Shown piece after piece: positions 676-55,971 of a stretch of DNA of 64,000 bases (positions are counted from its first letter, which is position 1; each line of letters opens with the position of its first letter). The DNA is from a virus. The translations under genes were made by a program, and so were the position numbers. The notes under the pieces were generated by a model that searched no databases, was not told where the DNA came from, and was given only the letters and a program-made list of their open reading frames with translations. Where the stretch lies: positions 1 to 64,000 of IMG/VR virus record IMGVR_UViG_3300027763_000057, one strand, 5' to 3'.

Positions 676-692
676 TAAGAAATTGAACACTT

Positions 693-1838: not shown

Positions 1839-1847
1839 AATGCTAAA

Positions 1848-30434: not shown

Positions 30435-32482
30435 TGTTTGATAAAATAAAAATATACGGGGTAGAAATTAATCTACCTCCCGTCCCTGATGAGGTTGAGA
30501 ATTGGGGAACTGATATTGCTAGTGAGCAGTATTGGAGAAGAAGAGAATTGCCTAAATTTTTTGAATCGGTAGAATACGATAAAGAGGGTAATGCATTATT
30601 GGATTTAGAACAATCTTATTTTGCAGGAAGAGAAGTGGATAGATGTAAGAAAGGTTTTTGGTTTTATAACAATGGAGTGCCAACTTTTCTTACAGGTAAA
30701 CACTATTTTTATTTGCAATGGTGGAAATTAGAGGATGATATTTATGGCGATTTTAGAGATGCAGACAGGCGTTATTTTTTGTTTTTAGACCATTGGGAAA
30801 AAACGCCTTGGTGTTTAGGTGTTGTTAGAGGTAAAAAACGTAGAGAAGGTGCGACATCGCAGGCGACATCAAATATCGTTTATGAGTGTATCTTCTATAA
30901 AAATAGCTTTTGCGGATTGACGAGCAAAACGCAGATAGATGCCAAGGCTGCATTTACAAACATGATTTCTTTTGGGTATAGGCAATTGCCCGTGTTCTTA
31001 AAGCCAAAACAATTAAACAACAAAGACAGCGTAAGTGAACTTGTATTTGCCCATAAATCTGTAGAGATAAAAGGCGGCAAGGGAAGTACAATTGATACAG
31101 ATACAGGGCATAGGTCTAGAATTGATTATAGAGCGCCTTCTTTGAACTCTTATGACTCTGGTAGAATAAGTCGTGGGTTATTTGATGAAGGCGGAAAATG
31201 GGCAAAAGAAACGCCATTTTCAACATTCATATCAATCGTAAGTAAAACACTTGTAAAAGGCGCTAAAAGAGTGGGTTTTATAGAATGTCCTTCAACATCA
31301 AACTCGATGACTACGGGAGGAGAGGAATTTAAGATTGTTTGGGATAATGCAGACCATACTAAATATCCAAAGACTCCTAATAGGCTTGCTAAATACTTTT
31401 CTCCGGCTTATGATGGTTACTTGGGTTTTATAGATAGGTATGGGATGAGCGTTATTGAGTCACCAAATGAAGAGCAATATAAATTTCTAGTTGAAAACTA
31501 TGTAGGCGCAGGTGACCTGAATGAAGAGGATATTAAACTAGGCGCAAAAGAATATTTACAGCAGAAAAGAAAGATTTTAGAAAGCGTACAATTAGAGGAA
31601 GAGATAAGAATGAACCCCTTTGATGAAAGGGAGATGTTTATGCTTCGGAATAATAATTGTCATTTTGATGCCGTATTACTTAACGATTTGTATGAAATAT
31701 CTAAAATAAACGAAAAAGAAGTATTAGAATATGGTAATTGGATGTGGAAAGATGGTAAACCTTTTACAGATGTTGAATGGCATCCTACAACAAAAGAGAA
31801 TGGCAGATGGACTATAGCCAAAAACTTTAAACGACCAGAAGGTGAAACATACATAACTAGGGGGTCTTTGTTTTTACCTAAAAACCCTGTTCAATTTATT
31901 ATGGGATGTGACCCGTTTCAGAATTCAGTTGTTGAATATGGCGAAGGCTCTAAAGCCACAAGCTTGGTGTTAAATAGGTATGATATTGGTATTAACGACC
32001 CTGTGTATAACATGATGTTCGTTAGCAAATATCATGCAAGACCTAGAATGGTAGAGTTATTTCACATGGATATGGTTTTGCAATGCTTTGCTTATGGTGG
32101 ACAAATATTGATAGAAGCTAAAATGGATGGCGGCTTGCGTAAGTTTTTTATAGACAACAATTGCGAACCCTTCCTGATGAGATTGCCCGAAAAAGCAAAT
32201 TATGGTATTGACCCTAACTCTGATAACAAAGCTCTTATGGTAAACCTATGGGAACAATATATTTTGACGCATGGGAAAGAAGGCAAATTGATATACCCAG
32301 AAATGATAGACGATAAGTACGATGGGCTTCTTAAATTCAATGTGAATGAAACCGAAGTAAGTGACCTTGTAATGGGTGGAGGATGGACACTTGTTGCTGA
32401 CTATTTCAAACGAGCTATTTTCAAGAAATCAGAAGATAGAATTAAAATTACAGACTTTTTTAAACAAACAAAAATAGCATAA
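30434..32482 (+). CDS. terL: Terminase large subunit
   Basis: 682 residues with an ATPase followed by a nuclease domain. The Walker-A-like segment RGKKRREGATS lies near 131-141, and FDEGG (about 250-254) supplies the Asp-Glu of Walker B. The nuclease domain shows IMGCDPF (Asp near 492), LIEAKMDGG (Glu near 560) and a later LVMGGGW. TerL packages DNA into the prohead through the portal and cuts the concatemer. The gene follows the small-subunit candidate with a one-base overlap and is directly followed by glycan genes, not by the portal. Confidence 0.9.
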   Translation: MFDKIKIYGVEINLPPVPDEVENWGTDIASEQYWRRRELPKFFESVEYDKEGNALLDLEQSYFAGREVDRCKKGFWFYNNGVPTFLTGKHYFYLQWWKLEDDIYGDFRDADRRYFLFLDHWEKTPWCLGVVRGKKRREGATSQATSNIVYECIFYKNSFCGLTSKTQIDAKAAFTNMISFGYRQLPVFLKPKQLNNKDSVSELVFAHKSVEIKGGKGSTIDTDTGHRSRIDYRAPSLNSYDSGRISRGLFDEGGKWAKETPFSTFISIVSKTLVKGAKRVGFIECPSTSNSMTTGGEEFKIVWDNADHTKYPKTPNRLAKYFSPAYDGYLGFIDRYGMSVIESPNEEQYKFLVENYVGAGDLNEEDIKLGAKEYLQQKRKILESVQLEEEIRMNPFDEREMFMLRNNNCHFDAVLLNDLYEISKINEKEVLEYGNWMWKDGKPFTDVEWHPTTKENGRWTIAKNFKRPEGETYITRGSLFLPKNPVQFIMGCDPFQNSVVEYGEGSKATSLVLNRYDIGINDPVYNMMFVSKYHARPRMVELFHMDMVLQCFAYGGQILIEAKMDGGLRKFFIDNNCEPFLMRLPEKANYGIDPNSDNKALMVNLWEQYILTHGKEGKLIYPEMIDDKYDGLLKFNVNETEVSDLVMGGGWTLVADYFKRAIFKKSEDRIKITDFFKQTKIA

Positions 32483-33108
32483 TGGCATGGACTGACTTTT
32501 TTACGAAAATATTCGTTATAAATTTACCAGAAAGAACTGATAGGTTATTAGACATAGCCGGAGAGCTAAATAAATGGAGTATCCCATATGAACTAATTAA
32601 TGCTATTAAGCATGAAAAAGGAGCAGAAGGATTACGCCTTACTGTGCAGGGGATATTTGAAAAGGCTGTTGAAAATAAATGGGATTCGGTATTGATTTTT
32701 GAAGATGACGCAATGTTTGTTGAATCATGCGGCAATCCTAATGAAACAATGGAAATGGTAGTAAAACAACTACCCGAAGCTTGGCATATATTATTATTAG
32801 GAGCGCAAGTTACTGGTGGTTTTAAAGCAAGAATATCCCCTAATATATTACGAGTAGAGAAAGCTTTTGCCACTCACGCTTGGGCTTTATCATTGCAGGG
32901 AATGAAAGAGATATTGATTCAGGGTTTATATGCCCCAATAGATAATTGCATTGTTGAAAAAATACAACCTATGCAAGAAACTTACATAACATACCCGTTG
33001 CTTTGCACACAGAAAGAGGGAATGTCTGACATAGGCGGTCAATTTATAGATTGGCGACCATTCATAGAAAATAGATATTATCAAAAACTAGGAGAAGTAC
33101 AATTATGA
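32482..33108 (+). CDS. GT25-family glycosyltransferase
   Basis: 208 residues. IFVINLPERTDRLLDIA at the start and SVLIFEDDAMFVE near residue 73 (the metal-binding EDD) are the hallmarks of family 25 (LPS-type beta-1,4-galactosyltransferases and collagen Lys-glycosyltransferases). A C-terminal CTQKEGMSDI part is also typical. It should transfer a sugar from an activated donor to a glycan or protein acceptor. It overlaps TerL by one base and the next gene by four (ATGA), so it opens the glycan cassette. Confidence 0.85.
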   Translation: MAWTDFFTKIFVINLPERTDRLLDIAGELNKWSIPYELINAIKHEKGAEGLRLTVQGIFEKAVENKWDSVLIFEDDAMFVESCGNPNETMEMVVKQLPEAWHILLLGAQVTGGFKARISPNILRVEKAFATHAWALSLQGMKEILIQGLYAPIDNCIVEKIQPMQETYITYPLLCTQKEGMSDIGGQFIDWRPFIENRYYQKLGEVQL

Positions 33109-33800
33109 GAACATTATCAATCTGCATACCTACTTGGAATAGAGTAGAAATGACATTAAATAGTTTTAAAGATGTTTATAATGATGATAGGGTAGAAGCT
33201 ATTATTATCGTAGATGACGCAAGCGAAATGCATATTTATAACAAATTAAAGGAGGAGTGTGATAAATTATCTAAAGTTAAGTTATATAGAAATTTGACTA
33301 ATAGAGATTGTTATGCTAATAAATATGTATCCATTAGCTTATCCCCCACCGACTATTGCATTATATTAGACTCTGATAATCAAATAGATACATCGTACCT
33401 TGATAAAATTTTTGAACAAGAATGGGCAAAAGATATGATTTTAGCTCCTGATTGGGCAAAGCCAACATTTAATTATACAGAATACTCGGATTTAATAATC
33501 AGCAAAGACAATCTAAAAGAATACATAGATAAGCCAATGTTTGAAACTTGTTTAAATTGTATGAATTATTTTGTAAACAAAAATGCTTATTGTGATGTTT
33601 GGGATGCTACAACAGACCCCGTAACAAGTGATAGCTTATTTCAAAATTACAATTGGCTAATGTCAGATAAGTATATTCATATTGTTCACGGATTAAGGTA
33701 TAATCATTTGGTTCATAATCAATCTCATTATATAAATAATGTTCAAAGAACAGGTGATTTTAGAGAAATATTATTAGAAAAAATTAGGAAGTTAAATTAA
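33105..33800 (+). CDS. GT2-family glycosyltransferase
   Basis: 231 residues with the GT-A opening TLSICIPTWNRVEMTLNSF, then AIIIVDDASE and YCIILDSDNQ, in which the acidic pair would bind the metal of the nucleotide sugar. The family makes beta-linked glycans. Placed between GT25 and GT11 genes with a four-base overlap upstream. The acceptor cannot be told from sequence. Confidence 0.85.
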   Translation: MRTLSICIPTWNRVEMTLNSFKDVYNDDRVEAIIIVDDASEMHIYNKLKEECDKLSKVKLYRNLTNRDCYANKYVSISLSPTDYCIILDSDNQIDTSYLDKIFEQEWAKDMILAPDWAKPTFNYTEYSDLIISKDNLKEYIDKPMFETCLNCMNYFVNKNAYCDVWDATTDPVTSDSLFQNYNWLMSDKYIHIVHGLRYNHLVHNQSHYINNVQRTGDFREILLEKIRKLN

Positions 33801-33817
33801 ATTAATTAATTTTACAT

Positions 33818-34555
33818 ATGGTATCTTTTACAAATGCGGGAAGAATGGGTAATTGGCTTTTTGAAGCGGCTACAGCAATGGCTTACGCTTTAAAGCATGA
33901 TTTAGATTTTACTGTTCCAAATGTAAGCAGCAATCCAAAATGGAATCCTATTTATTGTTTACATTTAGTAAACTCTAGTTACAATCCTGATATTGAAAAA
34001 ATACAATTATGGGAAGGGAAGCACTCGTATGAAGAGTTGCCTTTTGAAGAATCTTGGAGGGATAAAAATATAATAGTTGAAGGTTACAGGCAAACTGCAA
34101 AATACTTTGATGAATACAGAAGTGAGATTTTATATTTGTTAAAATTTGACTGGGTAAAGAAAGAGGGATATGTTGCAGTTCATGTTAGACGAGGAGATTA
34201 TGTTACTTTAAGAGAAAAGCATCCTGAAGTTACTATTGAATGGTATGAAAAAGCTATGGCTATGTTTCCTGATTATAAATTCAAGTTTTTTTCTGATGAC
34301 ATTGCTTGGTGTATGGATGCGTTTAAGCATAGAAATGATTGCGAGTATTCCGGAAACACAGATGAACAAAGTGATTTAATAGAAATGAGTTGGTGTGAGC
34401 ATCAAATATGTTCGCCTTCAACATTTTCATGGTGGGGAGCTTATTTAAATAGAAACGAAAATAAAAAAGTAATATTCCCGCAATTTTGGTTTAGCGCAGG
34501 ATGGTGCGGATTAGATACAAGCGATATTGTAAACCCTGAATGGATAAAATTATGA
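33818..34555 (+). CDS. GT11-family (alpha-1,2-fucosyltransferase-like) glycosyltransferase
   Basis: 245 residues. The order GRMGNWLFEAATAMAYAL, GYRQTAKYFDEY, HVRRGDYV (the donor-binding HxRRxDY motif), FFSDDIAWC, and DLIEMSWCEHQICSPSTFSW ending in WWGAYL is diagnostic for family 11. These enzymes use GDP-L-fucose and can accept the close analogue GDP-L-galactose. No fucose synthesis genes are in the window, but a GDP-mannose 3,5-epimerase-like gene follows, which could supply GDP-L-galactose. Ends by overlapping the next gene. Confidence 0.9.
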   Translation: MVSFTNAGRMGNWLFEAATAMAYALKHDLDFTVPNVSSNPKWNPIYCLHLVNSSYNPDIEKIQLWEGKHSYEELPFEESWRDKNIIVEGYRQTAKYFDEYRSEILYLLKFDWVKKEGYVAVHVRRGDYVTLREKHPEVTIEWYEKAMAMFPDYKFKFFSDDIAWCMDAFKHRNDCEYSGNTDEQSDLIEMSWCEHQICSPSTFSWWGAYLNRNENKKVIFPQFWFSAGWCGLDTSDIVNPEWIKL

Positions 34556-35139
34556 TTCAATTAACTATGTTTGATTTTCAGCATTTCTATCAAAGGATTG
34601 CAAAAGAGCTTCCAGATGATTGCAAAGTTTGTGAAGTTGGTGTTGCTGATGGCGATAGTGCCATTTACCTAGCACAAGAAATAAATAGGCTTGGCAAGAA
34701 ATTTAAGTTGTATATGGTAGATAACATGGATTATGGTGGTTATCTGCAAATGAAGACTATTTACCAAAATATTATAAAAAGCGGTTTAGGAGAGTTTATT
34801 GAAGTAGTTCCGTTTGCAAGTTTAGAAGCAGTAAAATTATTCAATGATGGTTACCTTGATTTTTGCTTTATTGATTCGTCACATACTTACGATGATACAA
34901 AAAAAGAAATAAAAGCTTGGTATCCAAAAGTAAAAGACGAAAGTATATTAGCAGGGCATGATTACAATGCTTCTGATGTAAGAAAAGCGGTTGATGAAAT
35001 TGTTCCGAAAGCATTTGTAAGAGATGATGTTAACGAGCAAAGTTTTAATCCAGAAATTGTGTTACATTCTGAAGATACTTTAAATGAATGGGGTTTATGG
35101 TGGTTTAAAAAGCAATGGTATTTAAAATTAAATAAATAA
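34552..35139 (+). CDS. Class I SAM-dependent methyltransferase
   Basis: 195 residues from the ATG at 34552, chosen because its ATGA overlaps the GT11 stop; a second ATG in frame lies 12 bases upstream. Motif I is CKVCEVGVADGDSAIYLAQE, and YLDFCFIDSSHTYDDTKKEI is motif IV with the Asp-Ser-His pattern of Methyltransf_24-type enzymes. It probably O-methylates a sugar or sugar-modified acceptor in the cassette. The target is not deducible. Confidence 0.75.
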   Translation: MIQLTMFDFQHFYQRIAKELPDDCKVCEVGVADGDSAIYLAQEINRLGKKFKLYMVDNMDYGGYLQMKTIYQNIIKSGLGEFIEVVPFASLEAVKLFNDGYLDFCFIDSSHTYDDTKKEIKAWYPKVKDESILAGHDYNASDVRKAVDEIVPKAFVRDDVNEQSFNPEIVLHSEDTLNEWGLWWFKKQWYLKLNK

Positions 35140-35141
35140 TT

Positions 35142-36149
35142 ATGAAAACAGCATGTGTATTAGGTGGACACGGGATGATAGGTATGCAACTTGTAAACAG
35201 ACTAAAGAAAGAAGGTTTTTGGGTTCGTTCAGTAGACATTAAGTTTCCTGAATTTTCAGAGTCAACCGCAAATGATGTTTTGATAGCTGATTTAAGAAAT
35301 ATAAGCGAAGTTTCGAAAGCATTATATGCGCCAAATCAAACTAGCATCTTTGACAAGGTTGGTAGTTTTGATGAGGTTTATATGTTAGCTGCTCAAATGG
35401 GTGGCGCTTTATATGTATTTACAGGAGATAATGATGCTGATATTATATACGATTCAACTATAATGAATTTAAATGTAGCAAAGAAAGCGTCAGAATTTAG
35501 CGTAAAGAAATTATTTTTTTCTTCTAGTGCTTGCGCTTATTCGGAAAGATTACAAGAGGATTTGAATAGTGCATCTTTGAAAGAAAATACAGCTTGGGAT
35601 GGTAAACCTGATAGTGTTTATGGTATAGAGAAGCTAATATCAGAGCAAGTTTACGATTCATTTAGAAGGAATAAAGGTTTAGATATTAGAATAGGTAGAT
35701 TTCACAATATATTTTCTCCAGAATGTACTTACAAAGGCGGCAGGGAAAAAGCTCCGGCTGCTGTATGTAGAAAAGTTGCAGAAGCAGATACCGAAATAGA
35801 AATATTTGGAGATGGATTACAGCAAAGAAGTTTCTTATATATTGATGAATGTTTAGATGGTATTAGAAAATTAATGGATAGCGAATATGTTTATCCGGTA
35901 AATATAGGTTCTGATGAAATGATTTCTATTAACGACTTGGCTAAAATGGTTATTGAGATATCGGGAAAGAAATTATCAATTAAAAATGTATCATCAAATG
36001 CATTAGGTGTTAGAGGTAGAAACTCTAACAATGAATTAATACACGAAGTAACGAGTTGGCGACCTACTCAATCTTTAAAAAAGGGAATGGAGAAGTTATA
36101 CCATTGGGTAAGTGCAGAAGTAAATCAATATAAAAGCAAAGGCATATGA
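35142..36149 (+). CDS. GDP-mannose 3,5-epimerase-like NAD-dependent epimerase
   Basis: 335 residues of the extended short-chain dehydrogenase family. GGHGMIG (8-14) binds NAD. SSSACAY (127-133), Tyr160-x3-Lys164, His188 and the segment KGGREKAPAAVCRK (198-211) match the pattern of plant-type GDP-mannose 3,5-epimerase, including the Cys (131) and the Lys next to KGG that do the double epimerization. DGLQQRSF near 224-231 and NIGSDEMISINDLAKM follow. That enzyme turns GDP-mannose into GDP-L-galactose and GDP-L-gulose. It lies between two methyltransferases, 300 bases after the GT11 gene ends with the coupling gene between. GDP-L-galactose could feed GT11. GDP-mannose would come from the host. 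Confidence 0.8.
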   Translation: MKTACVLGGHGMIGMQLVNRLKKEGFWVRSVDIKFPEFSESTANDVLIADLRNISEVSKALYAPNQTSIFDKVGSFDEVYMLAAQMGGALYVFTGDNDADIIYDSTIMNLNVAKKASEFSVKKLFFSSSACAYSERLQEDLNSASLKENTAWDGKPDSVYGIEKLISEQVYDSFRRNKGLDIRIGRFHNIFSPECTYKGGREKAPAAVCRKVAEADTEIEIFGDGLQQRSFLYIDECLDGIRKLMDSEYVYPVNIGSDEMISINDLAKMVIEISGKKLSIKNVSSNALGVRGRNSNNELIHEVTSWRPTQSLKKGMEKLYHWVSAEVNQYKSKGI

Positions 36150-36781
36150 TGATATCATTTGACTACCTAGTCGAAAAACACAAATTGGATATAAAGGGAG
36201 TATTGCATTTAGGGGCTTCCACAGGACAAGAAAGAAATGCCTATGACACCTATTGTAAAGGTTGGGTAATTTGGGTAGAAGCTATACCTAAAGTTTATTT
36301 AGACCTTCAGCAAAATATAAAATCATACCCACAACAAACAGCTTATAATGCTTGTTTAAGTAATGTAGATGGTAGCGATGTGATATTTAATGTGTCAAAT
36401 AATGAAAGCCAAAGTTCATCAATTTTAGAATTGGGCGTTCATGCATTGATTCATCCTGAAGTGCATTATGTAGAGCAAATAGCTATGAAAACACAAAGAG
36501 TAGATACGCTATTAAAAGATGTAGATGTATCTACTATTAATTTTCTAAATGTAGACTTGCAAGGGGCAGAGCATTTGGCAATAGAAGGAATGGGAGAATT
36601 GATTAAAAATATTGACTACGCATTGCTTGAGGTAAATAAAAAGGAAACCTATAAAGGGTGTATGTTGATAGAGGAGCTTGATTATTTTATGTTACAAAGG
36701 GGATTTGAGAGGGTTGAAACGGGGGAATGGGTAGCTGAAACATGGACAGATGCACTATATATCCGTAAATACAAAATATGA
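36146..36781 (+). CDS. FkbM-family methyltransferase
   Basis: 211 residues. GVLHLGASTGQERNAYDTYC (SAM site, 18-37), WVEAIPKVYLDL, and the FkbM signature TINFLNVDLQGAEHLAIEGM are present, as is VDTLLKDV before it. FkbM enzymes O-methylate sugars in polysaccharides or secondary metabolites. Overlaps both neighbours by four bases. Together with the earlier methyltransferase it suggests a methylated, hard-to-degrade glycan. Confidence 0.85.
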   Translation: MMISFDYLVEKHKLDIKGVLHLGASTGQERNAYDTYCKGWVIWVEAIPKVYLDLQQNIKSYPQQTAYNACLSNVDGSDVIFNVSNNESQSSSILELGVHALIHPEVHYVEQIAMKTQRVDTLLKDVDVSTINFLNVDLQGAEHLAIEGMGELIKNIDYALLEVNKKETYKGCMLIEELDYFMLQRGFERVETGEWVAETWTDALYIRKYKI

Positions 36782-37596
36782 TACATATACCAGAAGAATT
36801 TACTCCCACAATAAACACAATATACCCTTGGGAAAATGATATTATATTTGAAGATTGGGTTTCACACGAGCATATCGCAAACACAGAAAGGCAATACCTC
36901 CCAATTCAATGGACAGCATATCATGTAAATAACAATTACGGGAATAACCCCATAGCAAGAAAGCAATTACAAGACTATGTAGATAAGTTACCTAAAGATT
37001 TGAAATATTGGACTATTTGCCAATACGATGACGGGGTGATGACTGATTTTAAAGATTTGGATATCTTGGTCTTTAGTATGAGTAAAAAAACAGGGGTGGA
37101 AATACCTTTATTGTGTAAGCCACACTCGTACAAGTGGAATGGGAAGAAGTCAATATTTGCATCTTTCATTGGGACGCATACACATCCAATTAGGGAAAAT
37201 GTATTTAATATAAAAAATAGGGATTATTATGTTTCCGACAAAGTGCATAACATACAGGATTTTTGTGATATAATTTCTCATTCATTATTTGGATTATGTC
37301 CAAGAGGATATGGATTAAATAGCTTTAGAATAGGGGAATGTATGCAATACGAAACTATCCCCGTATATATATCGGATGAATTTATTAGTTGTTTTGATGC
37401 TAATTTTGAAAACTACGGCATTATAATAGAAGAAAGGGATTCAAATAAAATAGAAGAAATTTTAAAAAGCTACACTGATTTACAAATAGTAGATAAGCAG
37501 TTAAAAATCAAGGAGATATACAATGAATATTATACATACGAAGGAGCTTTTAACAAGATTAAAAACATTTTAAATGCAGATAGCAGTAATTCATAA
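36778..37596 (+). CDS. Exostosin-like (GT47) glycosyltransferase
   Basis: 272 residues. The hallmark is LFGLCPRGYGLNSFRIGECM (about 178-197) followed by ETIPVYISDEF, the exostosin motif that binds the sugar nucleotide. FASFIGTHTHPIREN precedes it. Family 47 enzymes add glucuronate, galactose or xylose in eukaryotes and act on capsule or LPS in bacteria. It overlaps the next gene by 23 bases. Confidence 0.85.
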   Translation: MIHIPEEFTPTINTIYPWENDIIFEDWVSHEHIANTERQYLPIQWTAYHVNNNYGNNPIARKQLQDYVDKLPKDLKYWTICQYDDGVMTDFKDLDILVFSMSKKTGVEIPLLCKPHSYKWNGKKSIFASFIGTHTHPIRENVFNIKNRDYYVSDKVHNIQDFCDIISHSLFGLCPRGYGLNSFRIGECMQYETIPVYISDEFISCFDANFENYGIIIEERDSNKIEEILKSYTDLQIVDKQLKIKEIYNEYYTYEGAFNKIKNILNADSSNS

Positions 37597-38119
37597 TTTT
37601 GATTCACATACTAGATTTGATATGTTAATGCAGGAATTTAAGACTCAAGGCATAAAGGATTTTAAATTTTTTCCGGCAGTTCACGATAGTTATTCAGTCA
37701 AAAAGTCTATAAATTTAGCGCACAAGCAATGCATTAGATATGCATTAGATAATGATTTACCTGAAATATGCGTAATGGAAGATGATGTTCATTTTACTAA
37801 CAAAAATAGTTTTTCTTATTTTTTAGAGCATAAACCTAAAGATTTTGATGTATATTTAAGTGGTATTTATTTAGGGGAAATCTTGGAGGATAATTCAGTA
37901 AAAGAGTTTTCCGGATTTCATTGTTATATTGTAAATAAAAAATTCTATGAAACTTACCTCTCCTTACCGGATGATGCTCACATTGACAGGGCATTGGCAG
38001 GTCTTGGAAAGTATTATGTATCTAGTCCTTTTATAGCAATTCAGCACAATGGATTTTCTTATAATACAAAAATGGAAATGAATTACGATGACCTTTTGAT
38101 AGGTAGAGAATTATATTAA
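37574..38119 (+). CDS. Second GT25-like glycosyltransferase
   Basis: 181 residues. AVIHNFDSHTRFDMLM, ICVMEDDVHF (metal-binding Glu-Asp-Asp) and the C-terminal HNGFSYNTK place it with GT25-type GT-A enzymes, though the N-terminus is less typical than in the gene at 32482. It is the last cassette gene before the portal promoter. Acceptor unknown. Confidence 0.7.
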   Translation: MQIAVIHNFDSHTRFDMLMQEFKTQGIKDFKFFPAVHDSYSVKKSINLAHKQCIRYALDNDLPEICVMEDDVHFTNKNSFSYFLEHKPKDFDVYLSGIYLGEILEDNSVKEFSGFHCYIVNKKFYETYLSLPDDAHIDRALAGLGKYYVSSPFIAIQHNGFSYNTKMEMNYDDLLIGRELY

Positions 38120-40565: not shown

Positions 40566-41060
40566 ATGGTAAAATCTTTATTATCGAAAAGTATGAAAAG
40601 CGTCTTGCAAGAGGCGTTATATTTAGAATTATATCAATCTAATCTTTGGAAGGCTTTGGCTAACCAAATGCAACGATATGGTTTTTTTGGTACACAAAAG
40701 TATTTCTTGGCAGAAAGCGAAGAAGAATTAACACATTACCAAATTCATGTTGAGTTTCAAAATGATATGGGTGATTGCGCTGATATGCCTTCAATAGAAG
40801 CTATTAAAGATAAAGTAAAAACTATTGGAGAATCTTTGGAAATAGGTTATGAAATGGAGCTTGAGGTTTACAATAAATATAAAGAATTTTACAAAATGGC
40901 AGAAGATGAGGATTGCGTTGTAGGACAATTCTTACTTCAATTTTTAGAAATACAAAGAAAGGCGGTAGGTCATTATGGTGATTTACTTGCAAAATATGCA
41001 ACAGCTGAAGCAACTAAAGAAATATTAGAATTTGACCAACATATCAACGATGTTCCTTAA
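40566..41060 (+). CDS. Ferritin-like protein
   Basis: 164 residues that line up along their full length with bacterial ferritins such as E. coli FtnA. The helix A segment LQEALYLELYQSNLW carries Glu21; helix B SEEELTHYQIH has Glu54 and His57; helix C has Glu98 (YEMELEV); helix D has FLLQFLEIQRK with Glu128 and Gln130. These positions correspond to the ferroxidase ligands (E17, E50, H53, E94, E126-Q127 region). It also keeps the turn pattern before helix C (MPSIEAI). Family function: oxidize and store iron in a 24-mer shell. It lies between portal and scaffold genes, so expressed with virion parts. Whether it forms a shell or joins the virion is open. Confidence 0.85.
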   Translation: MVKSLLSKSMKSVLQEALYLELYQSNLWKALANQMQRYGFFGTQKYFLAESEEELTHYQIHVEFQNDMGDCADMPSIEAIKDKVKTIGESLEIGYEMELEVYNKYKEFYKMAEDEDCVVGQFLLQFLEIQRKAVGHYGDLLAKYATAEATKEILEFDQHINDVP

Positions 41061-45755: not shown

Positions 45756-48700
45756 ATGGCTATTCAATCACTCATTACGGGGGATATAAAAATAAGAAAT
45801 GAAAACGGAGTTTTAGTTGCCGTTAATGGTATTGTGTCAGCCGATACTTCAGGAACTATAGGAACTTCAGGAAGTTCTGGGACGAGCGGTAGCTCTGGTA
45901 GCTCTGGCAGTTCAAGTACTTCTGGTACTACAGGAACTAGTGGTACTACAGGAACTTCTGGCACTAGTGGAACACGTGGAACAAGTGGAACGACAGGCAC
46001 AAGTGGAACAACGGGAACATCGGGAACATCTGGAACAACAGGTACAAGTGGAACTAGCGGAACTTCAGGCACATCTGGAACAACAGGAACTTCAGGCACA
46101 TCTGGGAGCAGCGGAACATCTGGAACTTCAGCAACAAGTGGAACAAGTGGAACTACGGGAACATCTGGAAGCAGTGGTACTAGTGGTAGTTCTGGAACTT
46201 CAGGTACAACAGGAACTTCCGGAACAAGTGGAACAAACGGAACAGGTGGCACATCTGGAACAACAGGTACTTCTGGTTCAAGCGGAACTTCAGGTTCAAG
46301 CGGAACGAGTGGTACAACAGGAACTTCAGGAACAACAGGTACTAGTGGCAGTTCAGGAACAAGCGGATTAAATGGTACAAATGGAACAAGCGGCGTTAAT
46401 GGTTCAAGTGGAACAAGCGGCATTTCGGGAACCTCTGGCACTTCAGGTGCTAACGGAACGAACGGAACAAGCGGCACTTCGGGTACAGCAGGAATTAGTG
46501 GTACTAGCGGAACCTCTGGCACTTCAGGAACGACTGGAACAAGCGGCACAAGTGGTACATCAGGTAGTTCAGGAACTTCAGGAACAAATGGAAGTGCTGG
46601 TACAAGTGGTACAGCAGGAACAGCGGGTACATCAGGTCGTAATGGTATAGATGGTTCTTCAGGAGCTTCAATTGCTAACTGGTATGGTGCGTTTACAAGT
46701 ACAGCTACTCAAGTGGTTACAGCGGCAAATACACCAACAGCAATCACATACACAAATGATGAATATAGTAATGGTATTGTTTTCAGTGGTTCACAACTTA
46801 CTGTTCAACATACTGGTATCTATGAAATTGCATATTCATTACAAATTGAACATACAGGTGGTGGAGGTGCAGATGTTAATATTTGGTTAAGGAAAAATGG
46901 TACTAATATTATTAGAACTGATTCTATTTTAGGTTTAAGAAGCCAAAGTGCAAAACAATTACCATTTGTTTCTATTATAGATAGTGCAAATGCTAATGAT
47001 TATTACCAAGTTTATTTTGAAGCAAATGCCTCTGATGTACAAGTAACAGCAGTAGCAGCAACAGGAACGATACCAGCAGCACCATCAATAATTACCAACA
47101 TAAAACAAATTGGTATAGCTGTAGGTACAACTTCAGGAACAAGCGGTAGTGCTGGTTCATCTGGTAGCTCTGGTACTTCTGGTACTTCAGGAACTAGTGG
47201 CACTAGCGGTACATCAGGATATTCAGGAGATAAATATTATACAACATCAACAACAACTTTTACTCTTGGTAATGCAGGAACTTTAACAGTTGGAACAGGG
47301 TTGGCTTACTCTCCTGCTCAATCAATAATCGTAGTTTATAATGCTTTAAACTTCCAAGAGTGCGAGGTTATTTCATATAATAGTGGAACAGGTGCTTTGC
47401 AATTTGCAGCTCCAACAAGAACTGTAGGTAGTGGAACTTATTCTGCATGGACAGTTAACCTAGATGGTGCTAGTGGTGGTGATGGTTCTTCAGGAACCTC
47501 TGGAACAAGTGGATTAAGTGGCACATCGGGAACTTCAGGATTAAGTGGTACATCTGGCACAAGCGGTACTACTGGTACTTCGGGTACAAGTGGTTTAAGC
47601 GGCACATCAGGAACTACTGGAACAAGCGGTTCTTCAGGAACTAGCGGTACAAGTGGTACAAATGGTACAGGTGGAACTTCAGGTACTTCAGGTTCAACAG
47701 GAACTAGCGGTTCTTCAGGAACTACGGGAACTAGCGGAAGCTCTGGTACTAGTGGCTTAAGTGGTTCTAGCGGTTCTTCGGGAACTTCAGGAACAAGCGG
47801 CACAAATGGAACGGGTGGTACTTCGGGAACTAGTGGTACTAGCGGCTTAAGTGGTACATCAGGCACTTCAGGTTTATCAGGTTCTAGCGGAACAAGTGGT
47901 CTTTCAGGCACTTCAGGTTCTAGCGGAACAACAGGAACATCGGGTAGTTCAGGAACTAGTGGAAGTAGCGGAACAGCAGGAACAACGGGAACTAGTGGAA
48001 CAAGCGGTATTAATGGAACAAGTGGTTCTTCGGGTACTACAGGTACTTCTGGCTCTAGTGGGACAAGTGGTTCAAGTGGAACAAGCGGTTCTTCAGGAAC
48101 AAGTGGTACAGCGGGTACTAGTGGTACTGCGGGAACGAGTGGTACTAGCGGACTTTTAGGTTCATTAACTACTATAGGGACAAGTGGTGTAGCTACATTA
48201 ATAGCTAATGTTTTGAATGTTCCTAATTATGGAAGTGCTTTAACGGGATATGTTCCATATACAGGTGCTACTGCTGATGTTAATTTAGGTATTTATACAT
48301 TAACTGCATCGGGTATAGATTCAGTAGGATATGTTGCTCGTGGTAGTGGAACTTTAAGTGGTTATTTAATACTTAAACAAGGCACTACATTTCTTGGTAA
48401 TGTTGTAGGTTATAATAGTATTAATGCAAATGCAAGAAAATATGTATTTATTTCGGATGTAGATGGTACAAATTACAAATCAGCAATTTTTGAATTAAGT
48501 TCATTAACTAATAATACTGATAGAACTTACACGCTACCTGATGCAAGTGGAACAATAGCTTTAGTTGGTGGTAGTGGTGTAGGAACAGTTACAAGCGTAG
48601 CTGCTTTAACAATAGGTACAAGTGGAACGGATTTAAGTTCAACAGTTGCAACAAGTACAACAACTCCTGTAATTACTTTAAATGTACCAACTGCAAGTGC

Positions 48701-50870
48701 AACGAATCGTGGGGCATTATCAAGTGCCGATTGGACAACATTTAACAATAAGCAAAGTGCTTTAACTAATCCTGTAACAGGAACAGGAACTACCAACTAC
48801 CTACCTAAATTTACAGGTGCAAGTACAATAGGGAATAGTATTATTAGTGAAAGTGGTGGAGCTATTTCAGTTGCAGGTAATATACAAACTGATGGTAATG
48901 CTAATAGATATGTAAAATCAACAGGTTTTATTTCTAATCAATTAGGGCAGTTATCTGATTTTGGTGTTAGTGATGCAGGATATTATTTTGTAGCAGGTGG
49001 TGGTATTCAATTTGTTTCAGGTGGAGCAAATAGGATGTTACTTACATCTTCAGGCAATTTAGGATTAGGAGTTACACCGAGTGCGTGGAGTGGAGTAAAT
49101 GCATTACAAGTAGTAGCTGCTTGTTTATCTTCAAATACTGCGACAAGTGGTATGTTTTTATCTGCAAATGCATTTTTTGATGGTTCAACAGATAGGTATA
49201 TAAATACTAAACAAGCTACAAGATATTATCAATTAGAAGGTAACCACGTTTGGCAAATAGCTCCTTCAGGAACGGCAGGTAACGCTATAACCTTTACCCA
49301 AGCAATGACCTTAACGGCAGCAGGGAGTTTGGGATTAGGAATTGCTACACCAAGCACATTATTACATATAGCTTCAAGTAGTGCTTCATTTTTTACTATT
49401 GATGCAGGTACATCAAGTAATTCGGGAATTAGTTTTTATAGGGCAGGTTCTCCATTTGGTGCAATATATTATTTATCAACAAATACAATGAGATTTGATG
49501 TAAATAATGCTATTGCAATGTTGATTGATTCAAATGCAAATACTTCTATTGGCTATACTACTAACCCTTCTTTATACAAGCTAGATGTTAATGGTACAGG
49601 AAGGTTTAGTGTTTCATCTACAAGTCAAAATCAATTAAGAGTATATTCAACTGATGGAACTGCTACATTAAAAAGCTATTCTACTTCAGATGGGGATGGT
49701 CTTATTTTAAACCAATATTATGCAGTTGCAGGTAATCCATATTTAAGAAGTGCTGACTTTGTAGCAAGTATGGGTGATGTTTCATCTACTCAAATGAGAT
49801 TTTTTACTAAAGCATATGCTTCAAATCCTGCTGTTGCTCTTACCATAGCATCCACAGGAGCAGCTACATTCTCTGCCGCTACTTCAGGAAACACAGTAAC
49901 AATTAATGGAACTGCTGGTTCTTTTGCTACAAGAGTAAATGGTAGTTCAACTACAGGTAGTTCTTATGGAATAGGAATATTTGCAGGTACAAATTCAAGT
50001 GATGATTCATTTAGAGTACATAATTATAGTGGTACTGAATATTTTAGAGTTAGAGGAGATGGCAATGTAGGTATAGGAACTACATCGCCAACAGGTTTAT
50101 TGCATTTATACGGAGCAGACCCTGCATTTAGAATACAAAGTTCTACCACAGGAAATATGCAGTTTGGTCAATGGGATGGTACTAATAATAGAATACAAGC
50201 ATCAGGTAGAGATTTTCTACTTACTGTGCAAGATTCTTATAATATGCTTTTTAATACCAATGCTACCGAAAGAATGCGTATTACAAGTGGAGGTCAAGTA
50301 GGCATAGGAGTTACACCATCAGCTTGGAGTTCAGCAACTTTTCCTAATGTTCTACAAGTAGGTTATGCATCATTAATTACAAATGGAGGTGCTTTTGCTC
50401 AATTGAGTAGCAATCTTTATTATGATGGTACTGCATATAAATACATATCAACAAATGGTGCATCTCGTATTATTCTTGATTCGGATGGCGCTATTACATT
50501 TAATAATGCAGCATCGGGAACAAGTGGTACTACCGTTACTACTTCCGAAAGATTGCGTATATCTAACACAGGTGCAGCTACCTTTTCAAGTTCAGTTACC
50601 GCAACATCATTCTTTGAAAGTTCCGATAGCAGATTAAAAACACTTATCCAAGATAACTACCAAACAAAAGGCATAGCATCAATAACCCCTAAACTTTACA
50701 CTAAAAACGGAAAGGTTGAACTAGGTTATTATGCTCAAGATTTTATTGGGATATTAGATAGTGCGGTTTCAAAAGGTAGTGATGATATGTTAAGCCTATC
50801 TTATCGTGAAGTATTAGTTGCAAAAGTGTACGCATTAGAGCAAAGAATTAAAGAACTAGAAAATAAATAA
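45756..50870 (+). CDS. Large collagen-like tail fibre with C1q-like domain and S74 chaperone
   Basis: 1704 residues. Order: N-terminal anchor (1-31); collagen-like Gly-x-y blocks of GTS, GTT, GSS type (about 32-303, 458-490, 575-805), almost without Pro; a C1q/TNF-like beta domain after the first block (about 304-455, with IYEIAYSLQI and NIWLRKNG); beta-rich shaft sections; and a C-terminal peptidase S74 intramolecular chaperone beginning at SSDSRLKTL (about 1621), with Ser and Lys five apart for self-cleavage, and a final coiled coil (LVAKVYALEQRIKELENK). The fibre trimerizes and likely recognises the host. Its Ser/Thr-rich collagen blocks would be good O-glycosylation targets for the phage's own glycosyltransferases; that link is an inference. 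Confidence 0.8.
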   Translation: MAIQSLITGDIKIRNENGVLVAVNGIVSADTSGTIGTSGSSGTSGSSGSSGSSSTSGTTGTSGTTGTSGTSGTRGTSGTTGTSGTTGTSGTSGTTGTSGTSGTSGTSGTTGTSGTSGSSGTSGTSATSGTSGTTGTSGSSGTSGSSGTSGTTGTSGTSGTNGTGGTSGTTGTSGSSGTSGSSGTSGTTGTSGTTGTSGSSGTSGLNGTNGTSGVNGSSGTSGISGTSGTSGANGTNGTSGTSGTAGISGTSGTSGTSGTTGTSGTSGTSGSSGTSGTNGSAGTSGTAGTAGTSGRNGIDGSSGASIANWYGAFTSTATQVVTAANTPTAITYTNDEYSNGIVFSGSQLTVQHTGIYEIAYSLQIEHTGGGGADVNIWLRKNGTNIIRTDSILGLRSQSAKQLPFVSIIDSANANDYYQVYFEANASDVQVTAVAATGTIPAAPSIITNIKQIGIAVGTTSGTSGSAGSSGSSGTSGTSGTSGTSGTSGYSGDKYYTTSTTTFTLGNAGTLTVGTGLAYSPAQSIIVVYNALNFQECEVISYNSGTGALQFAAPTRTVGSGTYSAWTVNLDGASGGDGSSGTSGTSGLSGTSGTSGLSGTSGTSGTTGTSGTSGLSGTSGTTGTSGSSGTSGTSGTNGTGGTSGTSGSTGTSGSSGTTGTSGSSGTSGLSGSSGSSGTSGTSGTNGTGGTSGTSGTSGLSGTSGTSGLSGSSGTSGLSGTSGSSGTTGTSGSSGTSGSSGTAGTTGTSGTSGINGTSGSSGTTGTSGSSGTSGSSGTSGSSGTSGTAGTSGTAGTSGTSGLLGSLTTIGTSGVATLIANVLNVPNYGSALTGYVPYTGATADVNLGIYTLTASGIDSVGYVARGSGTLSGYLILKQGTTFLGNVVGYNSINANARKYVFISDVDGTNYKSAIFELSSLTNNTDRTYTLPDASGTIALVGGSGVGTVTSVAALTIGTSGTDLSSTVATSTTTPVITLNVPTASATNRGALSSADWTTFNNKQSALTNPVTGTGTTNYLPKFTGASTIGNSIISESGGAISVAGNIQTDGNANRYVKSTGFISNQLGQLSDFGVSDAGYYFVAGGGIQFVSGGANRMLLTSSGNLGLGVTPSAWSGVNALQVVAACLSSNTATSGMFLSANAFFDGSTDRYINTKQATRYYQLEGNHVWQIAPSGTAGNAITFTQAMTLTAAGSLGLGIATPSTLLHIASSSASFFTIDAGTSSNSGISFYRAGSPFGAIYYLSTNTMRFDVNNAIAMLIDSNANTSIGYTTNPSLYKLDVNGTGRFSVSSTSQNQLRVYSTDGTATLKSYSTSDGDGLILNQYYAVAGNPYLRSADFVASMGDVSSTQMRFFTKAYASNPAVALTIASTGAATFSAATSGNTVTINGTAGSFATRVNGSSTTGSSYGIGIFAGTNSSDDSFRVHNYSGTEYFRVRGDGNVGIGTTSPTGLLHLYGADPAFRIQSSTTGNMQFGQWDGTNNRIQASGRDFLLTVQDSYNMLFNTNATERMRITSGGQVGIGVTPSAWSSATFPNVLQVGYASLITNGGAFAQLSSNLYYDGTAYKYISTNGASRIILDSDGAITFNNAASGTSGTTVTTSERLRISNTGAATFSSSVTATSFFESSDSRLKTLIQDNYQTKGIASITPKLYTKNGKVELGYYAQDFIGILDSAVSKGSDDMLSLSYREVLVAKVYALEQRIKELENK
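45849..46665 (+). repeat. Collagen-like GTS/GTT/GSS tripeptide repeat block 1
   Basis: About 270 residues of Gly-x-y triplets in which x and y are mostly Thr or Ser. At DNA level the 9-base units vary by synonymous changes. Smaller blocks follow at about 47127-47225 and 47478-48168. Confidence 0.9.
47478..48168 (+). repeat. Collagen-like GTS/GSS/GLS tripeptide repeat block 3
   Basis: About 230 residues of Gly-x-y triplets again with Thr/Ser, with some Leu in the y or x place. It follows a beta domain and precedes the shaft. Confidence 0.9.
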
Positions 50871-52182: not shown

Positions 52183-52211
52183 AAGCAGGCTTAAATACCT
52201 GCTTTTTTTAT
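52183..52211. terminator. Bidirectional terminator overlapping a coding end
   Basis: AAGCAGG (52183-52189) pairs with CCTGCTT (52198-52204), with T runs on both sides. It ends the plus-strand gene and lies across the last codons (KKAGI) and stop of the leftward glycosyltransferase gene, so the coding end doubles as a terminator arm. Confidence 0.7.
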
Positions 52212-54200
52212 TGCGTCTATAACCATACTAGCGGGTATTGTCCTTTGACATTCAAAGTCTTTATTTCTAGGACACCACAACCAATGCGGGTCTAATTTAA
52301 TATTTGGGTCATTCCAACATCCATGACATACATCTGGTTTGGTTATTCTATAACATTCAAACTCATGGTCTGATTCTGTAAAGTTAGAAATCATAACTAT
52401 TTTTTGATTTAAAGCATAGGCTAGCCAAGACAAACCACTAGATAATCCTATAAATAGTTTAGCTCCTGCGATTACATCCATTGTATTTCTAATATCAGTA
52501 TTGGTTATTTTGGTGCAATTATCAAATGGGTTATCTTCCTTTGAAACATTATATACATCGTACCCCAATCCATGCATGTAATTTATTACTTCTTGCCATC
52601 CTTCTCTAGTCCAAAACTTACATTCCATTGTGGAATTTGTGGCAATAGCTACATACTTCCAACTAGGTATTCTAAATTGATTTGAATGGTTTAATTTAGG
52701 TCGTAATGGCTTATAATCAAGTCCTAATATATTAGTAGCTGCTTGTTGTAAAGGGATGGTATTGCATAGCACAGGTTCTTTATTCTCATCCCACTTCCAT
52801 CCTATTCTATAAAGGGCATAACAATTTACCGTAGTCCCCGGCTCTACCAATTCTAATTCTGGATAATCTAATATATGGTTCCAATAGGTAGATAAAACAA
52901 CTTGGCAATTATGCTTCTTTTGGAATTCTAGGGCGTATCCTGTCCATGCAATTGAATCTCCTAGTGATTTACTATCCAATACTATAAAGACGGTCTTATT
53001 TGCCAAATTTAGAGTGTTTTTGTAGATGAGATGACCATCTTGCCAAACCTTTGCAGTCCATTTGGTAAAATATTGCCTATTCAAACGCACCCAAGAATTA
53101 GATTTAATGGTGTTTTCATAGTGGCATTTACCTTGTTCATCATAAAATTTAACCTCAAAATCACTATCCGACTCCCCCTTGATTTCCAAAAAAGCACCAT
53201 CTACAAAATGCTGGTTAATGGATATCTTTTGTTTTTGTGCAGGCATTTGTAATAATTTTCTATAAGCTTCTTCGTGTTTAAAGGCAAATATTGGTGCGGT
53301 ATTGTCCGTTGGTATTTCGTAATTAGCTTTAATGATATATAAATCACTATCAATTGGCTGTAAATAATCTGTAAACATATCGCCATATTGAGGTAGATTC
53401 CTAGCTATAATAGGTAATCCATAACTAATCGCTTCACGCAAGACTAATGGGTTACATTCCCAAGTAGAGTTAAACATAAAAATATTAGCTGTTTCCATCC
53501 AAGCACCTATGTCATTTCTTTCTCCCCACACCTTAACATTCGGTGGCAAATCTTTCATTAATGGTTCCCAATATTCTTTAAAATTCCCAGCTTGATTGCC
53601 AACAAAATTAAAAGCATAGTCAGGATATTTTCTTGCAATTTCAATTCCTTCACCTTGATTCTTTCCCGGAGTCCATAATCCTACATTTAAAACACTTCTA
53701 GCATTACGCATACTAAAATTCTGTTTTTTATCTATTGGATATTCTATTGTAACAAATTTAGATTCCATATTGGCAAATGTTTGCTCGTGATATGGAGTAC
53801 AAAATGCATACAAGTCTGGATGAAATATTTTTTCGTTATCTGGATTGAATATAATATCATGGCAAGTTTCTACAATTCTGTATTTCCTATCAGAACTATA
53901 AAGCTTTTTAATCATATCCCTATCCAATCTTTCTGATGGTTCATCTATATGGATAATATCGGGTTGCCATTCTTCAATGACCTTGAATAGCTCCATTTTA
54001 TTCTCATAAAGGGTAGTAAAATTACTACCAATTATTTCTTTTATAGCATTGCGCTGCACTACAAAATCCAAGCTATGGCATTGATACTCTACTACATAAT
54101 ACTCATTATCAGTATATTCTTTAAGACTTTGGATTCTTTTAAGTATAAATTGCGGGCATCCACCTGTTGATAAGTGTGGTGCTAAAAATAATATCCTCAT
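52191..54200 (-). CDS. GT4 glycosyltransferase fused to a TibC/Aah-like O-heptosyltransferase
   Basis: 669 residues. N-terminal half: LFLAPHLSTGGCPQFILKRI, WQPDIIHIDEPS, LNVGLWTPGKNQGEGIEIAR and ECNPLVLREAISYGLPIIAR, the GT4 pattern of GT-B enzymes. C-terminal half (from about 400): VFIVLDSKSLGDSIAWTGYA, WTREGWQEVI, AKLFIGLSSGLSWLAYAL and the ending CHGCW, WCP, ECQRTIP, with four Cys at about 625, 628, 643 and 651. This ending is the signature of the autotransporter O-heptosyltransferases (TibC, Aah), whose four Cys hold an iron ion and which glycosylate Ser side chains of beta-helical adhesins. The fusion with GT4 is unusual in my knowledge. It is coupled to the upstream gene by a four-base overlap. 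Confidence 0.8.
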   Translation of the reverse strand: MRILFLAPHLSTGGCPQFILKRIQSLKEYTDNEYYVVEYQCHSLDFVVQRNAIKEIIGSNFTTLYENKMELFKVIEEWQPDIIHIDEPSERLDRDMIKKLYSSDRKYRIVETCHDIIFNPDNEKIFHPDLYAFCTPYHEQTFANMESKFVTIEYPIDKKQNFSMRNARSVLNVGLWTPGKNQGEGIEIARKYPDYAFNFVGNQAGNFKEYWEPLMKDLPPNVKVWGERNDIGAWMETANIFMFNSTWECNPLVLREAISYGLPIIARNLPQYGDMFTDYLQPIDSDLYIIKANYEIPTDNTAPIFAFKHEEAYRKLLQMPAQKQKISINQHFVDGAFLEIKGESDSDFEVKFYDEQGKCHYENTIKSNSWVRLNRQYFTKWTAKVWQDGHLIYKNTLNLANKTVFIVLDSKSLGDSIAWTGYALEFQKKHNCQVVLSTYWNHILDYPELELVEPGTTVNCYALYRIGWKWDENKEPVLCNTIPLQQAATNILGLDYKPLRPKLNHSNQFRIPSWKYVAIATNSTMECKFWTREGWQEVINYMHGLGYDVYNVSKEDNPFDNCTKITNTDIRNTMDVIAGAKLFIGLSSGLSWLAYALNQKIVMISNFTESDHEFECYRITKPDVCHGCWNDPNIKLDPHWLWCPRNKDFECQRTIPASMVIDAIKKAGI

Positions 54201-55549
54201 AGTTTTATAAATTCATTAATTTTTTCAATATTTTTTTCTCCATGAAAGAATAATAATTGTCTTTCTGTAGCAGGTATTTTTACCCAATCTGAAATCAAAT
54301 TGTTATATCCTGTAAATATTAAATTCTTTCTTAACCCATTAACGTAGCAATAGGGTAATCCTTTGTATTGCTTGTATTTCCAAAGAAGGCAGTTGGCTAT
54401 TGTTTCTTCGTTAAATGGGGCGTACCAACCATTATTCCTCATTATTGATGGGTGTTGACATAACCATGACCATTCTGCCAACCAATCCAAACAATTCTGT
54501 CCCGCTACAAAATAACCAGTTTGTTTATACATTCCACGATTCTGCTGATTTATGCCAAATAATTTACAAGCCGGAGCTTCCAATGTGCCACTTAAATCAT
54601 CTCTACTATCAGCTCCACCTCTGCCATTAACCAATAAATATTCATATATCCCTTCTGTAAAGTAAGGGTAGGCAGAATCAACATCAAAATAATCAAAGAT
54701 TGAATCTACATTTTTTGTAGCTACACTATCAGTATCTATATAAGCCACCACTTCAGCATAGTTTTCAAGTGCATGATGTAGTATTTTGGGGCGTTCAATG
54801 AGTAATTTGTATATCTGCTTATCCTCCCTATCAATAAAATCTTTTCTTTTGTTTAAATGTATTACATCACAATCCCATCTTATTGTAATGGTATTCATGA
54901 CACTTACTTTCTTATCTGAATTAAGCATATAAACCAATATAGGAATATCATTGCTATTTCTAATAGAACGACAACAAGCATCCACAAGGTCAAAATAGGA
55001 ATCATCAGCGTAAAGGATAAAAGCTTTTTCATATTTTGGTTTTTTGTTTATGTAATAGCCATAATACTCATTGCCATAAAGAAATCCCAATTCTGGGTAT
55101 CTTTGTTTCATTATTTCAGGCGTAAGGTCAGGCTGTAAATGGGTTTCATGGATATTGCCCTCATGCTCTCCTTGTTCCATTTGATATGGAATTGCTACAA
55201 TAAAATATTTACAATGTTTAGATATATCTTTTATTAATCTTTGACCATCTTCAATGTTTAAATGCTCTAAAATATCTCCAAGTATGCACATATCATAGTT
55301 TTCAAGAGTAGGTGCATATACATCAAGTACATCCATTTCCATTACAACATCATATTTATCTTTAAGATTATACTTTTTTATGTATGGTTCCCATATTTCT
55401 ATAGCATCCATTTTATACCCATAATCCCGTAATAAATTGCTATAAGTTCCGCATCCTGCACCAATATCTAATATTTTAGCATCTAAAGATACATTCTCTA
55501 ATATCCAATTTTTAATTGAATCTTTGTATAATTGATAACTTGTTGGCAT
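54197..55549 (-). CDS. Methyltransferase-glycosyltransferase fusion
   Basis: 450 residues. N-terminal SAM methyltransferase: DAKILDIGAGCGTYSNLLRD (motif I), AIEIWEPYI (motif II), CILGDILEHL (motif IV). C-terminal GT-A-type domain: AFILYADDSYFDLVDACCRS and VVAYIDTDSVA, where the DTD pattern binds metal and nucleotide sugar; later NEETIANCLLWKYKQYK. It is likely a bifunctional enzyme adding and methylating a sugar. It is first in a two-gene leftward unit with the O-heptosyltransferase-like gene. Confidence 0.75.
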   Translation of the reverse strand: MPTSYQLYKDSIKNWILENVSLDAKILDIGAGCGTYSNLLRDYGYKMDAIEIWEPYIKKYNLKDKYDVVMEMDVLDVYAPTLENYDMCILGDILEHLNIEDGQRLIKDISKHCKYFIVAIPYQMEQGEHEGNIHETHLQPDLTPEIMKQRYPELGFLYGNEYYGYYINKKPKYEKAFILYADDSYFDLVDACCRSIRNSNDIPILVYMLNSDKKVSVMNTITIRWDCDVIHLNKRKDFIDREDKQIYKLLIERPKILHHALENYAEVVAYIDTDSVATKNVDSIFDYFDVDSAYPYFTEGIYEYLLVNGRGGADSRDDLSGTLEAPACKLFGINQQNRGMYKQTGYFVAGQNCLDWLAEWSWLCQHPSIMRNNGWYAPFNEETIANCLLWKYKQYKGLPYCYVNGLRKNLIFTGYNNLISDWVKIPATERQLLFFHGEKNIEKINEFIKL

Positions 55550-55599: not shown

Positions 55600-55971
55600 A
55601 TGAAAATAGAAGTAAGCATAGGGGAAGTGGTAGATAAATATACCATTCTAACCATCAAAAAGCTATTCATACATGATAGCGAAAAGTTAGCAAATGTAGA
55701 TAAGGAGTGGAAAATAATAAAATCCGCCCTATCAAGAAAGTATCCAGAAACATTAGCCGAGCCATTAACCCAAGAGCTTTACGACATAAACAAAAAGCTA
55801 TGGAAGGTGGAAGATGACCTACGGGATTGCGAGCATAAAAGTTACTTTGGAGAGAGATTTTTGGAGTTAGCACGAGAAGTGTACCAATTAAATGATGTGA
55901 GAGCTATTATTAAAAAACAAATTAATATAAAATACGGCTCCGAATTGGTAGAAGAGAAGTCATACAAATAA
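55600..55971 (+). CDS. DUF6165-like protein linked to glycan loci
   Basis: 123 residues starting KIEVSIGEVVDKYTILTIKK, then DSEKLANVDKEWKII; the SIGEVVDKxTILxIK and KLxNVxxE patterns are those of DUF6165 proteins, which I know from capsule and glycosylation loci with no proven activity. It lies divergently from the fused glycan genes, so functional linkage by position is likely. Confidence 0.65.
   Translation: MKIEVSIGEVVDKYTILTIKKLFIHDSEKLANVDKEWKIIKSALSRKYPETLAEPLTQELYDINKKLWKVEDDLRDCEHKSYFGERFLELAREVYQLNDVRAIIKKQINIKYGSELVEEKSYK

Follow-up and report, generated by a model that had tools for sequence, protein, structure and literature searches.

Genes at the locus

The window, by which we mean the whole stretch of 64,000 nucleotides that was analysed, belongs to a freshwater phage whose IMG/VR record (IMGVR_UViG_3300027763_000057) is 67,524 bases long. 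Terminase and portal genes are present in the same record, which agrees with the phage location given in an initial annotation. A host in Bacteroidota, proposed there as well, is likely, because the cultured relatives of the portal (24–26% identical) are nearly all flavobacterial phages. The region of interest contains a fibre gene on the plus strand and two genes on the minus strand, P1 and P2, which overlap by 4 bp:

45756–50870, plus strand: collagen-like (G-[TS]-[ST])n fibre, the proposed acceptor (1704 aa; Pfam Collagen, 1.4e-65)
45924–46671, plus strand: fibre repeat block 1, Ser/Thr-Gly (runs at aa 57–305)
47136–48168, plus strand: fibre repeat block 2, Ser/Thr-Gly (runs at aa 461–804)
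50622–50768, plus strand: possible intramolecular chaperone of the S74 type, at the C-terminal end of the fibre (PF13884, E 0.0071; 17.0 bits, below the cut-off of 22)
52183–52204, no strand: terminator-like hairpin, bidirectional, situated between P1 and the convergent genes on the fibre side (weak; 4 found in the region versus 3.0 expected by chance)
52191–54200, minus strand: P1, fusion of GT4 and TibC-type glycosyltransferase domains (669 aa, ATG start)
53301–54200, minus strand: P1 GT4 domain, aa 1–300 (PF00534, 2.9e-10; E-x7-E motif, E248/E256)
52995–53249, minus strand: N-terminal β-barrel of the P1 TibC-type domain, aa ~318–402 (TIGR04414 from profile position 2; modelled strands 326–396)
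52194–53249, minus strand: P1 TibC-type GT-B catalytic domain including the barrel, aa 318–669 (TIGR04414, PDB and Foldseek matches)
52248–52328, minus strand: P1 iron-finger cysteines C625, C628, C643 and C651 (alignment to TibC)
54197–55549, minus strand: P2, methyltransferase (aa 1–171) and putative GT-A domain with a DTD motif (aa 172–450)

P1 was recovered at exactly the positions of the ORF annotated initially. The fibre ORF is the long ORF nearest to P1, and its Ser/Thr/Gly repeats account for the Ser/Thr-rich tail fibre that had been placed beside the enzyme. It contains 166 uninterrupted Gly-X-Y triplets, with Thr or Ser at X in 147 and Ser or Thr at Y in 142; Pro is not common.

Elsewhere in the window, a single ORF of 3,550 aa (19457–30109, plus strand) lies upstream of the terminase. 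A second glycan cluster (32482–38119, plus strand) is located between the terminase and portal genes and encodes two GT25 proteins, GT2, a fucosyltransferase-like GT11, Methyltransf_24, an FkbM methyltransferase and GT47, as well as an epimerase that resembles GDP-fucose synthase but scores below the cut-off. With P1 and P2, the phage has about ten sugar genes in total. Directly after the portal there is a ferritin/rubrerythrin-like protein (40566–41060, plus strand; PF00210, 2.5e-14), which is ~97% identical in relatives.

P1 is a variant of the TibC family

The C-terminal half of P1 matches TIGR04414 (hepto_Aah_TibC, autotransporter strand-loop-strand O-heptosyltransferase) over positions 2–373 of 374, with 224.9 bits (E 1.5e-66) against a curated cut-off of 200 bits. 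E. coli TibC (4rap) is the top PDB sequence match of P1 (E 1.8e-42), and beyond TibC the search with the C-terminal half returned no other match of note. The match to the TibC/Aah family is far beyond chance, and the proposed TibC/Aah-type domain is thus borne out, although P1 does not reach the PF21129 TibC_1st profile. TibC is also the best Foldseek match of the AlphaFold model of P1 (pLDDT 89), superimposing with a r.m.s. deviation of ~2.1 Å; the superposition covers ~370 columns including the barrel strands, with a TM score of 0.82 normalised to TibC. The next Foldseek matches are GT4 enzymes (PglA/PimA-like GT-B). The GT4 fusion that had been suggested is evident from the Pfam matches of the N-terminal half, PF00534 and PF13692 (4.8e-9), and from an intact E-x7-E motif, the two Glu residues of which are invariant across 37 relatives.

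We compared P1 with TibC at residues shown to be important by mutation or structure (PMC4358343). The four-Cys ending noted initially (CHGCW...WCP...ECQRTIP) is present, and C625, C628, C643 and C651 align with Cys339, Cys342, Cys358 and Cys370 of TibC, making them the predicted iron ligands. The catalytic base Asp110 corresponds to D415, and three of four donor contacts are kept: T524 (Thr226), K528 (Lys230) and W592 (Trp305). The fourth, the adenine-contacting Arg286, aligns with T573, with an uncertainty of two residues and R571 close by. Pro300 of TibC is replaced by S587, as in AAH, which has Ser at this position and accepts both ADP-heptose epimers (PMC4358343). Finally, the β-hairpin thumb of TibC (residues 261–270), which is required for the active dodecamer (PMC4358343), falls in an alignment gap: ten residues are gone in P1.

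Similar trends are seen in 80 distinct phage TibC-type domains. The catalytic Asp is present in all 80, the equivalents of Lys230 and Trp305 in 76 and 78, respectively, and each of the four iron-finger cysteines in 78 or 79. Given this conservation, the phage proteins are presumably active enzymes of the TibC fold. The position of Arg286, by contrast, is occupied by Thr in 41 domains and by Arg in 11, Pro is never found at the position of Pro300 (0/80), and the thumb loop ranges from 9 to 28 residues, some loops having the TibC length. Because Arg286 is mostly replaced and the thumb loop is variable or deleted, neither the use of ADP-heptose nor a dodecamer can be assumed for the phage enzymes. 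At L070, L341/L347 (G016) and L326/L348 (G022), TibC-type domains come in pairs encoded by adjacent or neighbouring ORFs, and some of them have a thumb loop of TibC length.

Like TibC and AAH (TIGR04414; PDB 4RAP, 4RB4), P1 combines a β-barrel, a GT-B catalytic domain and a four-Cys iron finger, and its gene sits beside that of a large protein whose repeats contain many Ser residues followed by Gly. It differs in being phage-encoded and fused to GT4 (in relatives also to methyltransferase and GT-A domains), in having lost the thumb and exchanged Arg286 for Thr, and in having a collagen-like fibre as its partner, whereas the known acceptor of TibC is a β-helix autotransporter. No autotransporter domain was detected in the ORFs scanned, which were a subset of all ORFs. 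As the thumb, an autotransporter partner and one donor contact are missing, we file P1 as a variant of TIGR04414 and not as a bacterial autotransporter heptosyltransferase (BAHT).

P2 and natural gene fusions

The N-terminal domain of P2 matches Methyltransf_11 (3.8e-5). When the whole P2 model (pLDDT 89) was submitted to Foldseek, the top 50 matches were methyltransferases except for two fatty acid synthase entries. The C-terminal domain (aa 172–450) has no PDB sequence match. We infer a GT-A glycosyltransferase from the DTD motif, whose D272 and D274 are invariant, and from the predicted topology.

In about 20 relatives P2 and P1 form a single ORF of ~1,130–1,230 aa; in other relatives, the fusion to P1 takes in just the second half of P2. 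More widely, GT4 is present in 42 of 53 diverse phage TibC-type proteins, and a few of the 53 have methyltransferase, FkbM or short-chain dehydrogenase domains. This pattern of natural fusion suggests that the parts of P1 and P2 work on one product.

Relatives in other phages

The initial annotation spoke of a phage copy, but the TibC-type domain occurs widely among aquatic phages, and a few examples have already been auto-annotated. The uncultured Caudovirales phage protein A0A6J5SVC1 (BFVD/UniProt), auto-named 'Glycosyltransferase Aah/TibC', has the same fold, as does A0A7S9XE01 from Virus NIOZ-UU157, which is 53% identical over 709 columns. For such viral proteins there are database names only. 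A search of bacterial sources (genome_contigs) gave one relative, L080, on a MAG contig; this contig itself carries an S/T repeat ORF, so L080 is possibly a phage.

The cultured Microcystis phage Mel-JY01 (PP395634) encodes a 1,227-aa protein, currently annotated 'methyltransferase FkbM', that ends in a TibC-type domain (317 bits). On the plus strand of this record (L520, PP395634.1), positions 2–3052 are a GTSGSSG repeat fibre ORF of >1,016 aa, 1.7 kb from the enzyme. Two 'hypothetical proteins' are annotated on the minus strand antisense to the fibre ORF, and hence on the wrong strand. With the enzyme–fibre pair in an isolate, the proposal set out below is testable in a cultured phage. A literature search that covered few subscription journals found no paper on phage TibC-type enzymes, on Mel-JY01, or linking the enzyme to such fibres, and none that analyses fusion, substrate or distribution for the auto-named viral proteins.

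Association of the enzyme with the repeat fibre

Genes of the TibC family usually adjoin the gene of their substrate (PMC4358343). A degenerate DNA pattern for GTSGSSGTSG, blind to the enzyme, was used to scan IMG/VR and gave 50 viral records of at least 22 kb; 21 of them encode an enzyme above the TIGR04414 cut-off. A control set of 49 records, selected either by a collagen pattern (GP[QK]) or by a random 17-mer, contains the enzyme once (Fisher, p = 9e-7), in the record of L069, which belongs to the fibre-plus-enzyme group. The random 17-mer yielded only 4 records, and a set picked by a random AT-rich 15-mer was added. Among its 50 records, none has the enzyme above the cut-off, one has a sub-cut-off match at 192 bits, and none has the (Gly-Thr/Ser-Ser)n repeat. 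With the comparison restricted to the 36 records of at least 20 kb and the sub-cut-off match counted, 21/50 versus 1/36 gives p = 3e-5. GC content is matched (0.356 for the random control loci, 0.375 for the fibre set). These tests treat records as independent, though some are related.

Starting from the enzyme gave a similar picture. A repeat fibre is found at 30 of 36 enzyme loci having at least 7 kb downstream, with L056, whose repeat is imperfect, as the 31st, versus 1/91 and 0/89 control loci (1/180 together). Fibre and enzyme are convergent in 42 of 48 cases. The 39 fibres from enzyme loci comprise 6,820 triplets with 58% Thr and 32% Ser at X and 80% Ser at Y, Pro being practically absent. 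TibC modifies Ser, not Thr, within repeats, and its two mapped sites are Ser-Gly-Gly and Ser-Ala-Ala (PMC4358343); the phage repeats end in Ser-Gly, as one of these sites begins. The repeat is absent from the enzyme loci L007, L026, L062, L074 and L076 and from the huge phage LR756504. In another large phage, LR756501.1 (735 kb), a (G-[ST]-[ST])4 DNA pattern matches 1,446 times, with many of the matches in an array starting near 103.5 kb, and one TibC-type enzyme is encoded at 580 kb.

Enzyme and fibre may co-occur merely through shared lineage or habitat, being common to aquatic phages with large accessory regions, in which case the fibre need not be the substrate. The records are indeed mostly aquatic, and both fibre-only and enzyme-only records occur; the 29 fibre-picked records without the enzyme may represent fragments, phages with other enzymes, or no glycosylation. 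In 21 mixed records, the repeat lies within 15 kb of the enzyme in 15, versus 10.3 expected (p = 0.018), and the counts within 5 and 10 kb do not significantly exceed expectation, so closeness within these records is not our main evidence. However, neither the repeat nor an enzyme above the cut-off was found in the GC-matched random viral records. The fibre-picked records also encode a diverse set of enzyme domains, with a median pairwise identity of 37%, and among the hosts are a cyanobacterium and probably Flavobacteriia. We therefore regard common descent or habitat as an unlikely explanation of the association.

A variable island in closely related phages

We examined relatives with a portal at least 80% identical to that in the window. 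All seven clade records that continue for 16 kb or more beyond the portal (G101, G102, G106, G107, G110, G122 and G125) have both enzyme and repeat fibre, in the same place. The clade records without the enzyme stop short of this distance; L372, which extends furthest with 14.7 kb, contains neither gene. In most clade relatives the structural genes are ~90–97% identical, whereas P1 is 56–59% identical, except in L397 (93%), and the fibre diverges like P1. The N-terminal modules differ in L395, L396, L398 and L399, with GT4 and the TibC-type domain retained. The fibre and glycosylation genes thus make up an island that varies rapidly around a constant enzyme core. A divergent gene for a DUF6165 protein (55600–55971, plus strand; PF19662, 1.8e-11) adjoins the cassette in the window; of the seven clade regions compared, L397, with a cassette of the same type, is the only one to share it.

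Discussion

We think it probable that P1 and P2 together act as a glycosylation cassette and that its main substrate is the collagen-like (Gly-Thr/Ser-Ser)n fibre of the phage itself. The bases for this reading are homology, the conserved active and iron sites, gene fusion and the enzyme–fibre association. The phage protein O-glycosylation postulated initially has thus gained a cross-lineage association and natural gene fusions, the glycosylation activity itself being a prediction.

Our inferences about acceptor, transfer order, donor sugar and benefit are as follows. The TibC-type domain of P1, with D415 as the base, would start the glycan by moving a sugar from a nucleotide-sugar donor onto the hydroxyl groups of Ser (perhaps Thr) in the repeat, and the four-Cys metal finger and β-barrel may hold the protein acceptor or a dimer. 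The GT4 domain of P1 and the GT-A-like domain of P2 could then lengthen the sugar, and the P2 methyltransferase might cap the glycan. The outcome would be a dense, strain-variable glycan coat that could protect or stiffen the fibre or modulate adsorption.

As for the donor, no ADP-heptose adenylyltransferase (TIGR02199) was found above the cut-off in 43 enzyme-bearing virus records, four of which contain sub-cut-off nucleotidyltransferases. The sugar is therefore either supplied by the host or not heptose. A donor made by phage heptose genes was rejected: TIGR02199 matched only below the cut-off, and the 'cytidylyltransferase like protein' of Mel-JY01 has no NCBIfam match. With Arg286 replaced and the thumb deleted in addition, the heptose specificity claimed in the initial annotation is not supported, and heptose as the transferred sugar is unproven. 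Phage DNA glycosylation was set aside, as no base-modification gene was present among the genes scanned.

A different role for the cassette would be to alter the host surface (LPS or capsule), blocking superinfection or freeing progeny, with the proximity to the fibre reflecting a general host-interaction island. There is precedent in Pelagibacter myophages, where glycosyltransferases adjoin tail-fibre genes in a hypervariable island and are read as modifiers of the host O-chain (PMC7029224); the cassette island is likewise variable, and GT9 heptosyltransferases act on LPS. Unlike P1, the island genes are not linked to a TibC-type domain or a specific repeat in the available text of that paper. 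A TibC-type domain with iron finger and β-barrel is a protein-modifying architecture, however, and TibC outscores all LPS heptosyltransferases by far. Moreover, the neighbours that were scanned include no Gtr-type membrane partner, and a fixed island would leave the link to one specific repeat, in phages of 26–735 kb, unexplained. Host-surface modification thus appears improbable. It is even less likely that the target of the enzyme is a protein of the host surface or another virion protein: the known relatives of the enzyme modify cellular autotransporters (PMC4358343) and there may be several S/T-rich proteins per phage, but the scanned neighbours include no autotransporter domain and the convergent neighbour is an S/T repeat fibre at most loci.

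Glycosylation of the fibre would have a parallel in mycobacteriophages, which glycosylate their own capsid and tail-tube proteins (Che8 gp110, Corndog gp38, Myrna; Freeman et al. 2023, as presented in PMC12363180). As described there, the glycosyltransferases are phage-encoded and act on the phage's own virion proteins, as we propose for P1; the targets differ, capsid and tail tube in one case and a collagen-like fibre in the other. The Pelagibacter and mycobacteriophage systems are the closest published parallels that we are aware of on the phage side. To our knowledge, no relation to TibC is known for the mycobacteriophage virion glycosyltransferases.

Glycosylated Thr can stabilise collagen triple helices. 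A bolder version of our proposal, which we offer as speculation and consider rather doubtful, is that many aquatic phages have very long, proline-free (Gly-Thr/Ser-Ser)n fibres in which nearly every repeat is glycosylated by a TibC-derived multi-enzyme protein. The sugar would then take the role that hydroxyproline has in animal collagen, stabilising the triple helix, and the variable glycosyltransferase and methyltransferase modules would diversify the coat.

If fibre glycosylation by P1 and P2 is correct, a class of protein-glycosylating enzymes, familiar from enterobacterial adhesins, would be a common phage tool for decorating fibres. This would provide a substrate and a function for many unexplained phage glycosyltransferases that are now filed as LPS- or DNA-modifying, and would account for the puzzling Gly-Thr-Ser-Ser fibres of aquatic phages. 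The natural variants lacking a thumb would put the need for the TibC dodecamer to the test, and the self-contained fusions of methyltransferase, GT, GT4 and TibC-type domains could serve the engineering of O-glycosylated repeats.
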